Origin: Acidimicrobiaceae bacterium
GTDB lineage: Bacteria; Actinomycetota; Acidimicrobiia; Acidimicrobiales; RAAP-2
NCBI GenBank assembly: GCA_003153575.1
Contig: PLZW01000035.1
Location: 176,148 to 240,147 of the forward strand
Direction of reading: 5' to 3'
DNA length: 64,000 nt
The position numbers and the translations under genes were made by a program. Shown here piece by piece: positions 3,031 to 52,869 of the stretch. The notes under the pieces are model-generated. The model did no database searches. It saw only the letters and a program-made list of their open reading frames with translations, and had not been told where the DNA came from. Position 1 is the stretch's first letter; every line of letters begins with the position of its first letter.

Positions 3031-4626
3031 GTGGACCGTAAGTGGTGGACCCTCATCGCCGTCTGCTTCGGCACCTTCATGTTGCTGCTCGACATCACCG
3101 TCGTGAACGTGGCCCTGCCCGACATCCAGGTCGCCCTCCACTCGTCGTTCGCCGACCTCCAGTGGGTCGTCGACGCCTACGCCCTCACCCTGGCCGCCTT
3201 CCTGCTCACCGCCGGTGTCCTCGGCGACATGTACGGGCGCCGGGGAGTGTTCGCCATCGGCCTCACCCTGTTCTCGCTGGCCTCGTTGACCTGCGGCCTG
3301 TCCACCACGCCGCTGATGCTCAACCTGTCCCGGGCGGCCCAGGGGGTGGGCGGGGCCATCATGTTCGCCACGTCGCTGGCCCTCATCGCCCAGGCCTTTT
3401 CCGGGAGGGAGCGGGGCACGGCCATCGGCGTGTACGGCGCCGTGGTGGGCGGCGCCGTCGCCATCGGCCCGCTGGTCGGCGGGGCCATCACCAGTGGCAT
3501 CGGCTGGCGCTGGATCTTCTTCGTGAACATCCCCATCGGGGTCATCGCCGTGGTCATCACCCTGACCAAGGTCGACAATGCCAAGTTCTCCACCGGGCGG
3601 CGCATCGACTGGCTCGGGTTCGTCACCTTCTCCGCCTCGCTGTTCCTGCTGGTCTTCGCACTGGTCCAGGGCAACGCCAAGGGGTGGGGCAGCGCGTACA
3701 TCCTCTCGCTCCTGGTCTCCTCGGCCATCCTGATGGCGGTCTTCCTGGTGGGCGAGTGGAAGCAGGGCGACCCGATGCTCGACCTCGGCCTGTTCAAGCG
3801 GCCGGCGGTGGTCGGCGTGTCCCTCGGGTCCTTCACCCTGTCGGCCTCGATCTTCGCCATGTTCCTCTACCTGACCCTGTACTTGCAGGAGGTGCTGGGC
3901 TACTCACCTTTCCAGGCCGGCCTCCGCTTCCTGCCGCTGACGATCCTCGCCTTCATCGTCGCACCCGTCGCCGGCAAGCTCACCGTGCGGATCCAGTCGC
4001 GGTACATGCTGGGACTGGGCCTGGCCCTGGTGGCGATCGGCTGTCAGCTCATGACCCACACCGAGGCCACCTCGTCGTGGCTGGTCCTGCTGCCCGGCTT
4101 CCTCGTCTGCGGCGTGGGGATCGGCATCACCAACCCGGTGCTGGCCTCCGTGTCGGTGTCCGTCGTCCCCCCAGAGCGCAGCGGCATGTCGACCGGCTCG
4201 GCCAGCACGTTCCGCCAGGTGGGCATCGCCACCGGGATCGCCGGGCTCGGCGCCATCTTCGTCCACCAGATCGGGCCGGCCGTCGTCACCTCGCTCCAGA
4301 CGACGGCCTCCGGCCAGGGCGTCCTGGCCCATGCCGGCTCGCGTCTGGGTGGCGCGCTGGCCTCCGGCAGCGTCCGCCAGGCGACGGCGTCCATCCCCTC
4401 GGCCGCGGCCAGGGACGCTCTGCTGTCGGCCTACCGCACCGGATTCGCCCAGACCCTCAACCACCTCATGGCCATCGCCGCCGTGACCGCCATGGTGGGG
4501 GCGATCGGCTGCCTCCTCCTCGTCCACCAACGTGACTTCGTCCTGAGCATCGCCGAGAGCGGGCGGGCCGCGCAGCCCGAGGCCGACGACGGACCGACGG
4601 AGGTCGCCGCGGCCCAGGCCGGATGA
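3031..4626 (+). CDS. MFS transporter, DHA2 (EmrB/QacA) 14-TM drug:H+ antiporter family
   Basis: LDITVVNVALPDIQ, DMYGRRGVFAIG, WRWIFFVNIPIG motifs; 531 aa, about 14 TM. Confidence 0.93.
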   Translation: MDRKWWTLIAVCFGTFMLLLDITVVNVALPDIQVALHSSFADLQWVVDAYALTLAAFLLTAGVLGDMYGRRGVFAIGLTLFSLASLTCGLSTTPLMLNLSRAAQGVGGAIMFATSLALIAQAFSGRERGTAIGVYGAVVGGAVAIGPLVGGAITSGIGWRWIFFVNIPIGVIAVVITLTKVDNAKFSTGRRIDWLGFVTFSASLFLLVFALVQGNAKGWGSAYILSLLVSSAILMAVFLVGEWKQGDPMLDLGLFKRPAVVGVSLGSFTLSASIFAMFLYLTLYLQEVLGYSPFQAGLRFLPLTILAFIVAPVAGKLTVRIQSRYMLGLGLALVAIGCQLMTHTEATSSWLVLLPGFLVCGVGIGITNPVLASVSVSVVPPERSGMSTGSASTFRQVGIATGIAGLGAIFVHQIGPAVVTSLQTTASGQGVLAHAGSRLGGALASGSVRQATASIPSAAARDALLSAYRTGFAQTLNHLMAIAAVTAMVGAIGCLLLVHQRDFVLSIAESGRAAQPEADDGPTEVAAAQAG

Positions 4627-4656
4627 CCGACAGGGGACGATGATCGACAGGGGACG
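4623..4656 (+). repeat. 17-bp tandem duplication (2 units) forming two ATGA-coupled mini-ORFs MTDRGR* and MIDRGR*
   Basis: ATGACCGACAGGGGACG (4623-4639) then ATGATCGACAGGGGACG (4640-4656), followed by the ATG at 4657. Confidence 0.95.
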
Positions 4657-4893
4657 ATGAGCGGCAACGAGCCGCTGGCCGACCGCGGTCCGGACGAGCC
4701 CCATCCGTCCCGCCTCGCTCCCGACCAACCCCGGCGGGCCGAGATCCTCGCCGCCCACCGGGCAGCCATCGAGGCGGGCGAACCCACCTACGCCGATCCG
4801 GCCACCGGCTACTTCGTCATGACGTCGGCCTACCTGGCCGGCCGGGGGACGTGCTGCCACCAGGAGTGCCGGCACTGCCCGTATGTCGTGTGA
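4657..4893 (+). CDS. DUF5522-like small Cys-rich protein
   Basis: C-terminal GYFVMTSAYLAGRGTCCHQECRHCPYVV. Confidence 0.8.
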   Translation: MSGNEPLADRGPDEPHPSRLAPDQPRRAEILAAHRAAIEAGEPTYADPATGYFVMTSAYLAGRGTCCHQECRHCPYVV

Positions 4894-43902: not shown

Positions 43903-45343
43903 CGCGGCGACCCCTGCTCCGGCGCCGGCGGCGGCTTCTCCCGACCCGGCGCAACTGCTGCAGTCGAAGAGCTACCTGCAGTTGCTGGCGCTGGCTGCAC
44001 TGATCGGTGTCCCGATCTCGGCTGTCGCCTACTTCTACCTGGCACTGGTCGGCCACCTCCAGACGTGGCTCTTCACCTCCGTCCCGACCGCCCTCGGGTT
44101 CCACGGCACACCCGTGTGGTGGCCGCTGCCGATGCTGCTGGTGGCCGCCGTGCTGGTCGGCCTCACCATCACCTACCTCCCAGGCACGTCCGGTCACGAG
44201 CCGGCCGAAGGGTTCCATACGGGCGGCACCCCGCTCCCGGTCGACCTCCCCGGCATCATCGTGGCCTCAATTGTCACCCTGTCGCTCGGGGCCGTCCTCG
44301 GACCCGAGGCACCGCTCATCGCCGTCGGCGGCGGACTGGGCGTGCTCGCCGTCCACCTCGCGGCCCGGGACGCGCCGCCCATGGCGGCCACGGTCATCGC
44401 CGCGGCCGGCAGCTTCGCCGCCATCAGCACGCTGCTCGGCTCACCCATCATCGGAGCATTCCTCCTGATGGAGGCATCCGGTCTCGGCGGCCCGCTGCTC
44501 GGAATGGTGCTCGTGCCCGGACTCCTCGCCGCCGGCATCGGCACCCTGATCTTCATCGGGCTCGACCAGTTGACCGGTCTCGGCACGTTCTCCCTGGCCA
44601 TCTCCGGACTGCCGACCTTCAGCCATCCGACCGGCACCCTCTTCCTGTGGGCCGTCGCCATCGGGGTACTGTCCACGTTCCTGGGAACGGCCATCCGGCT
44701 CGGTGGGCTTGCCGCCCAGTCCCTGGTCCTGAAGCATCGGCTGGCCTGGACGATTGCGGCGGGCACGGTGGTGGCCGGATCGGCGATCGCCTTCGCCGAA
44801 CTGACCCACAAGAGCGCCCAGAACGTCCTGTACTCGGGGCAGAACGCACTGCCCGGACTCGTGCTCCACGCGTCGACCTGGACCGTCGGCGCACTCATCG
44901 TGCTCATTGTGGCCAAGTCGATCGCGTACGCCACCTCGCTGTCCGCGTTCCGGGGCGGCCCGATCTTTCCCGCCATGTTCATCGGAGGAGCCATCGGCGT
45001 CGCCGGCTCACACCTGCCGGGCATGGTCCTGGTACCCGCCGTGGCCATGGGAATCGGAGCCATGACGACGGTCATGCTCCGTCTTCCCCTCACGGCGACG
45101 CTGCTCGCCGTGCTGCTGGTCTCGAGCGACGCGCTGGCCGTCACCCCCCTGGTCATCGTGGCCGTCGTCGTCGCCTACGTGCTGACCGCCCGGTTGCCCC
45201 AGCGTCCGGCCGACCTCCGGGGCCACCGTGCACCACCGACTACGCCAGCAACTCCGACAGCACCTGCAGCACCTGCAGCACCTGCAGCACCGGCAGCACC
45301 TGCAGCACCGGCAGCACCTGCAGCACCGGCCGGAGCCGGCTGA
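43895..45343 (+). CDS. ClC-family chloride channel/transporter
   Basis: LPGTSGHEPAEGFHTGG, SLGAVLGPEAPLIAVGGGLG, FRGGPIFPAMFIGGAIG motifs; multi-TM. Confidence 0.88.
   Translation: MSDAATPAPAPAAASPDPAQLLQSKSYLQLLALAALIGVPISAVAYFYLALVGHLQTWLFTSVPTALGFHGTPVWWPLPMLLVAAVLVGLTITYLPGTSGHEPAEGFHTGGTPLPVDLPGIIVASIVTLSLGAVLGPEAPLIAVGGGLGVLAVHLAARDAPPMAATVIAAAGSFAAISTLLGSPIIGAFLLMEASGLGGPLLGMVLVPGLLAAGIGTLIFIGLDQLTGLGTFSLAISGLPTFSHPTGTLFLWAVAIGVLSTFLGTAIRLGGLAAQSLVLKHRLAWTIAAGTVVAGSAIAFAELTHKSAQNVLYSGQNALPGLVLHASTWTVGALIVLIVAKSIAYATSLSAFRGGPIFPAMFIGGAIGVAGSHLPGMVLVPAVAMGIGAMTTVMLRLPLTATLLAVLLVSSDALAVTPLVIVAVVVAYVLTARLPQRPADLRGHRAPPTTPATPTAPAAPAAPAAPAAPAAPAAPAAPAGAG
45258..45329 (+). repeat. 9-bp tandem repeat (CAGCACCTG/CAGCACCGG) x8 encoding the Ala/Pro tail of the ClC protein
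   Basis: Eight contiguous 9-mers with T/G alternation at position 8. Confidence 0.95.
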
Positions 45344-52289: not shown

Positions 52290-52838
52290 GTGACTTCAGC
52301 CTGGACTGACGAGCTTGCCGCTGGGCCCCGGACTCGACTCGTGCTCATCTGCGGGCTCCCAGCCTCGGGAAAGTCGACACTCGCTCGTGAGCTCGCACCC
52401 AAGATCCGTGCCATCCGGCTGGACAAGGACGGGTGGGTGACCCAACTAGGCGCCGATGTGTGGGACGACGAGTTCCGAGTCCGTCTCGAACGACAATTGT
52501 GGGCTCTCACCCAGGAACTTCTCGCCCATGGTCAGAGCGTGATTTTGGAGTGGGGCCACTGGGCGCGAGTTGAACGAGACGAGAAACGACTCGGGGCGCG
52601 AGCGCTGGGCGTGGGAGTCGAACTGCATTACCTCGATGCGCCCTTGGAGGAGTTGATCGAGCGAGCTGATGGTCGCACTAGTTCGGGCGAGTGGACAGCC
52701 TTGCCCATGTCACGGGACCACTTTGAGAAGTGGGCGACGATCTTTCAGCCACCCGACGAGGCCGAGTTCCTGTTGTTCGACAAGCCCGTTGCCGGAGTTT
52801 CCCTAGGCCAGTCGCCAGGCAGCAGGATTCAAGCGTAG
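52290..52838 (+). CDS. P-loop AAA/zeta-toxin-like kinase
   Basis: LVLICGLPASGKSTLARELAP Walker A; VILEWGHWARVERDEKRLGARALGVGVELHYLDAP. Confidence 0.82.
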   Translation: MTSAWTDELAAGPRTRLVLICGLPASGKSTLARELAPKIRAIRLDKDGWVTQLGADVWDDEFRVRLERQLWALTQELLAHGQSVILEWGHWARVERDEKRLGARALGVGVELHYLDAPLEELIERADGRTSSGEWTALPMSRDHFEKWATIFQPPDEAEFLLFDKPVAGVSLGQSPGSRIQA

Positions 52839-52869
52839 GGTGAGTATAGGACGTAGGGTGAGTATAGGA
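52834..52869. repeat. Perfect 18-bp tandem duplication spanning the kinase stop codon
   Basis: CGTAGGGTGAGTATAGGA x2. Confidence 0.95.

Follow-up and report, generated by a model that had tools for sequence, protein, structure and literature searches.

Two chained mini-ORFs between an MFS transporter gene and a DUF5522 gene: a probable near-neutral slippage duplication of a 17-bp stop-start junction

Introduction

The window analysed here, a 64,000-nt stretch of the genome of an Acidimicrobiaceae bacterium, contains a junction at which an MFS transporter gene and a DUF5522 gene are linked through two successive six-codon ORFs, and this raises the question of whether these ORFs hand ribosomes from one gene to the next or are the by-product of a short duplication. 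An initial annotation of this DNA had considered both readings, namely that a 17-bp duplication inserted successive termination-reinitiation steps that tune the stoichiometry of the downstream protein, or that it is a neutral product of slippage. The source genome is metagenome-assembled and fragmented (2.98 Mb in 43 contigs, about 76% complete), and the comparison covered 14 genomes of the genus, with one genome per species and with named relatives belonging to the Acidimicrobiaceae/Acidimicrobiales. Literature searches found no paper on DUF5522, and none on tandem duplication of ribosome-binding sites at stop-start overlaps.

Organisation of the junction

The features of the junction are as follows:

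3031..4626, + strand: MFS transporter gene (ORF, 531 aa as listed from GTG 3031; stop TGA 4624-4626)
4622..4660, + strand: 17-bp tandem duplication, 2.3 copies (GATGACCGACAGGGGAC / GATGATCGACAGGGGAC / GATGA)
4623..4643, + strand: putative mini-ORF 1, MTDRGR and stop; its ATG overlaps the MFS stop
4632..4637, + strand: Shine-Dalgarno (SD)-like AGGGGA core of unit 1, 3 nt from ATG 4640
4640..4660, + strand: putative mini-ORF 2, MIDRGR and stop; its ATG overlaps the stop of mini-ORF 1
4649..4654, + strand: SD-like AGGGGA core of unit 2, 3 nt from ATG 4657
4657..4893, + strand: DUF5522 gene, 78 aa (PF17653, E 1.8e-19); its ATG overlaps the stop of mini-ORF 2

The MFS protein matches MFS_1 (PF07690, E 1e-54), and its gene is chained to DUF5522 by three ATGA overlaps that pass through mini-ORF 1 (ATG ACC GAC AGG GGA CGA TGA; stop 4641-4643) and mini-ORF 2 (ATG ATC GAC AGG GGA CGA TGA; stop 4658-4660). 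The direct distance from MFS to DUF5522 is +30 nt, the ATGA joints running only via the mini-ORFs. The positions initially given for the MFS stop, both 6-aa ORFs, the DUF5522 start and the ATGA joints are all exact on the sequence. An alternative start for DUF5522 was rejected, as no in-frame start other than ATG 4657 exists from the MFS stop up to the conserved N-terminal part.

The repeat at 4622-4660 is reported by TRF with a period of 17, 2.3 copies and a 95% match; its units differ at a single base (C4627/T4644), and GATGA is present at 4622-4626, 4639-4643 and 4656-4660. At a threshold of at least 21/22 identical positions at an offset of 10-60, no repeat as good as this one was found in 120 randomised windows (60 first-order simulated and 60 triplet-shuffled), and the 17-bp duplication is therefore regarded as a real event. 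Its copies are adjacent, near-identical and alike beyond chance, as in slippage duplications. No dispersed family of the 17-bp unit was found; allowing 2 mismatches, the genome has a single further copy of the 17-mer (C39:279308), which is consistent with chance matches in other genomes. A dispersed mobile repeat like the mycobacterial interspersed repetitive units (MIRUs) was ruled out by this lack of a copy family elsewhere in the genome.

It is highly improbable that the second unit is an artefact of assembly. The genome is fragmented and incomplete, and it is the only one for its species, which would leave room for such an error; however, sequencing reads are much longer than the unit, and with one base distinguishing its copies an expansion error is unlikely.

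The junction in related species

DUF5522 homologues are present in 11 of the 14 genus genomes, and the same MFS gene lies directly upstream in all 11; in G007 the MFS gene is present without DUF5522. The MFS-DUF5522 link may be specific to the genus, and the neighbourhood could offer a hint to the role of DUF5522. MFS homologues of other genera of the family (for example at L026, L028, L030 and L033) had no DUF5522 match in the stretch examined.

When the junctions of the five nearest species were aligned with both genes as anchors, the gap relative to the window was exactly 17 nt in G002, G013 and G010, and the intergenic distance was 13 nt in G002 and G013 as opposed to 30 nt in the window. 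In the MFS tree, the window and these relatives fall in one clade of five species (support 82/94). The alignment that the initial annotation had proposed thus reveals a difference in unit number, with one unit in G002 and G013 and two in the window, which supports the claimed 17-bp duplication; the relatives have one copy fewer between conserved flanks, again as in slippage duplications. Because the window has exactly one 17-nt unit more than its nearest relatives, the second step appears to be a lineage-specific duplication, and the second unit is best read as an insertion in the lineage of the window, the one-unit form being ancestral in the five-species clade.

An unbroken chain from the MFS stop to the DUF5522 start is found in four of the five clade species. 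In G002 (GTGA - VTASVR - TTGA) and G013 (GTGA - VTDINR - ATGA), it consists of one unit of 17 nt whose spacer is unrelated to that of the window, which had been named beforehand as a sign against a relay. G004 has a one-step chain of 10 codons (VTRTDRRRGR), its spacer being longer by 12 nt, which is divisible by three. The leading V of these peptides is a GTG translated literally, which as a start would be M. In G010 the chain has been lost, with CTGA at the MFS stop and the DUF5522 start shifted to -11. The chain is likewise absent from the 6 other pair-bearing species, outside the clade, where the junction is a direct -4 overlap (G008), lies at -11 (G011), at +1 or further upstream (G012), at +2 with a TAG stop (G005) or at +34 or +40 nt with a TAG stop (G001), or has the same 30-nt gap as the window with a TAA stop and no mini-ORFs (G003). 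Junction distances in the genus thus comprise -11, -4, +1, +2, +13, +25, +30 and +34/+40 nt. As a sign of selection, the chain retained in four of five clade species is a weak argument, since these species share ancestry and the frame is kept by chance in one case out of three.

None of the spacer sequence, the peptides and the SD-like core is conserved in the relatives. A conserved mini-peptide was rejected, the peptides of the different species (MTDRGR/MIDRGR, VTASVR, VTDINR and VTRTDRRRGR) being unrelated.

Translation initiation at the junction

Each 17-bp unit does carry an AGGGGA core of its own, as had been annotated, and the core of unit 2 is presumed from its position to be the ribosome-binding site of DUF5522. 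No comparable core lies upstream of ATG 4623, and no SD-like core was found at this place in the relatives. No 16S match was obtained in the genome itself, and the 16S of the congener G001 supplied the anti-SD sequence. AGGGG pairs with it through one G-U, and the 3-nt spacing to each ATG is short. The predicted anti-SD duplex at the AGGGG cores is about -8.3 kcal/mol (including an upstream pair), compared with a median of -7.2 at gene starts, where the best of four candidates was taken, and of -4.7 at random positions. The 12 bases before ATG 4640 and ATG 4657 are identical, and for this reason the start context of DUF5522 is taken to have been kept.

These identical contexts bear on the suggestion that the extra start at 4640 and its copied core act as a decoy, capturing ribosomes and lowering DUF5522 output below that of the one-unit ancestor. 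With the same 12 bases before both starts, about equal ribosome binding would be expected, and the predicted pairing of -8.3 kcal/mol is equal for the two units. However, ribosomes that started at 4640 would reach their stop right at 4657, where they could start again, and a core only 3 nt from its start may be weak, and we consider such a decoy very unlikely.

An RNA element at the junction was also rejected, as the window has no Rfam match and the predicted mRNA fold of the junction is no better than that of shuffled sequences (z 0.15).

Frequency of mini-ORF chains in the genome

The frequency of such chains was assessed in 1.84 Mb of the same genome, fetched in stretches, in which genes were called by a simple rule based on GC by codon position and the start nearest to a -4 overlap was chosen; the chain counts, observed and shuffled alike, are approximate because of these gene calls and this choice of start. 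Direct -4 overlaps make up 131 of the 910 same-strand neighbouring pairs. Among the 406 junctions with a spacer of 1-100 nt, 29 one-step chains were seen versus 23.9 expected by shuffling of the spacers (Poisson P 0.17), and 2 two-step chains versus 0.35 expected (P 0.05), one of them being the junction studied here. When the flanking bases were permuted as well, the expected numbers were 12.3 one-step and 0.59 two-step chains; the one-step excess over 12.3 reflects the bases that adjoin stops and starts, not the spacers. Mini-ORF chains were not clearly over-represented among these 406 junctions. TGA is the stop in 846 of 1,099 long genes, and half of the glycine codons are not GGC, which together make a gene-terminal NTGA common. 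The bare spacing motif has a single occurrence in the genome, and its reversed control has 3. The reading-frame chain alone is far less special than the duplication.

The other two-step chain, at L116:16375-16421 on contig C33, is unrelated; it follows a called gene and links mini-ORFs of 6 and 9 codons through NTGA overlaps.

Termination-reinitiation across the junction

A two-step termination-reinitiation relay from 4623 through 4640 to 4657 could keep DUF5522 coupled to MFS over the 30-nt gap, at which coupling would otherwise be lost. Such a relay is mechanically plausible and has precedents: every step would be a -4 overlap, the commonest coupling geometry, and the delivery of ribosomes to a downstream gene by short ORFs or uORFs, also where that gene is coupled at -4, is an established mechanism (PMC12548453). 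In native gene pairs, little reinitiation was left once the gap reached about 20 nt, with 22-23 nt having abolished or nearly abolished it in H. volcanii pairs and +38 nt having removed 80-100% of it in E. coli pairs (PMC10666635). Reporter work, as reviewed in PMC12548453, found coupling undiminished up to +25 nt, and a relay may accordingly be unneeded here; the published measurements disagree on the effect of a 30-nt gap. A one-step version of the relay is present in G002, G013 and G004, but G003 and G001 manage without one at +30 and +34/+40 nt, the peptides and SD-like cores are not conserved, and the genome shows no clear excess of chains. Moreover, the three starts are 17 nt apart and fall inside one ribosome footprint, so that they would compete with as well as relay to one another. 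Taken with these points, the relay is an unlikely explanation of the junction.

A related suggestion is that the serial six-codon ORFs form a relay whose unit number, one in relatives and two in the window, is a slippage-adjustable setting of downstream output, and this is still more doubtful. The one-step chain in three other species of the five-species clade, one of them across a 12-nt difference in length, gives tuning of this kind a small probability. The proposed effect on the stoichiometry of the downstream protein gained no positive support, with spacer, peptides and SD-like core unconserved, a 30-nt gap without mini-ORFs in G003 and chains that are not clearly enriched genome-wide. If a relay were nevertheless in operation, the junction would be a natural test of chained reinitiation and of the bridging of a +30-nt gap, where published reinitiation studies conflict.

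Origin of the mini-ORFs

Replication slippage between small direct repeats makes short tandem duplications. The explanation that we regard as quite likely for this junction is a lineage-specific, near-neutral replication-slippage duplication of 17 bp that preserved the initiation site of DUF5522. The ancestor would have had one unit, made up of the MFS stop, a 13-nt spacer and the DUF5522 start, with GATGA at both ends (MFS ending in GGATGA, and the DUF5522 start lying in CGATGA). Mispairing of these two GATGA copies, 17 nt apart, would have duplicated one whole unit, with stop, spacer, SD-like core and start copied together and GATGA again at every new boundary. Initiation at the DUF5522 start would then differ little from before, relying on its own ribosome binding and on any coupling that reaches it. 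Since a single GATGA-to-GATGA slippage yields the ATGA joints, the hexacodon length and the AGGGGA core all at once, none of these needs selection. We infer slippage as the mechanism, as well as its near-neutrality, and slippage from GATGA to GATGA would also have kept the frame.

The unrelated spacers and peptides, the free drift of the junction, the many short tandem duplications of the genome, the near-chance frequency of chains and the ordinary fold count in favour of this reading. Counted against it are the chain-keeping in four of five clade species, including G004 despite its 12-nt longer spacer, and the 2 two-step chains versus 0.35 expected. A GGG-to-GGA change, which would have turned GTG 4623 into ATG and so made GATGA, may have preceded or followed the duplication, and this also counts against this reading. 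Of the two readings in the initial annotation, neutral slippage nevertheless fits best with the one-unit relatives, the GATGA repeats and the drifting junctions. A stop-start motif that doubles as a short direct repeat would make a junction prone to slippage copies with every joint in frame.

Comparison with known systems

MIRUs resemble the 17-bp unit in that they bring to the start of a gene an ORF which is joined to it at -4 nt spacing, and according to the account in PMC12548453 (citing Supply et al. 1997) an insertion with this joint disturbs expression little. MIRUs are, however, longer, dispersed and apparently mobile, whereas the 17-bp unit is a single local duplication without a family. 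The number of tandem MIRU copies is variable between senX3 and regX3. Each joint of the window is a standard ATGA overlap, as in -4 nt (NTGA) pairs with termination-reinitiation (PMC6728339, PMC10666635), but here the joints link genes with putative six-codon ORFs. Ribosome-delivering uORFs (PMC12548453) and bicistronic designs with a short leader cistron (PMC5995908) similarly couple a short ORF tightly to the next start, although these follow a 5' leader or are engineered, while the mini-ORFs of the window stand two in a row behind a gene in a likely operon. Being a local copy of a unit with a GATGA direct repeat at either side, the junction resembles slippage tandem duplications, and it differs from ordinary ones only in that the repeat is a stop-start motif, from which the copies emerge as chained mini-ORFs. 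The junction belongs to kinds already known and is most probably a near-neutral slippage duplication.

Other tandem repeats in the genome

The genome is rich in short tandem duplications: TRF gave 94 rows of period 10-60 in the 1.84 Mb. In 29 of them, a few of which overlap, the period is not divisible by three, and 21 of these 29 lie at gene edges or between genes. In the window, a 9/18-bp tandem array of the CAGCACCTG-type unit (4.3 to 7.8 copies) occupies 45254-45330, and this array, at 45258, is the only other one in the window to pass the repeat-quality test applied to the junction. A perfect 18-bp tandem duplication, CGTAGGGTGAGTATAGGA, is located at 52834-52869 and is unusually A+T-rich for this genome. 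Elsewhere in the genome, an array of 4.9 copies of a 17-bp unit that contains TAG, CCAAGGCCGAGTAGTCA, lies at the edge of a called gene (L137:12409-12492, corresponding to C15:252409-252492).
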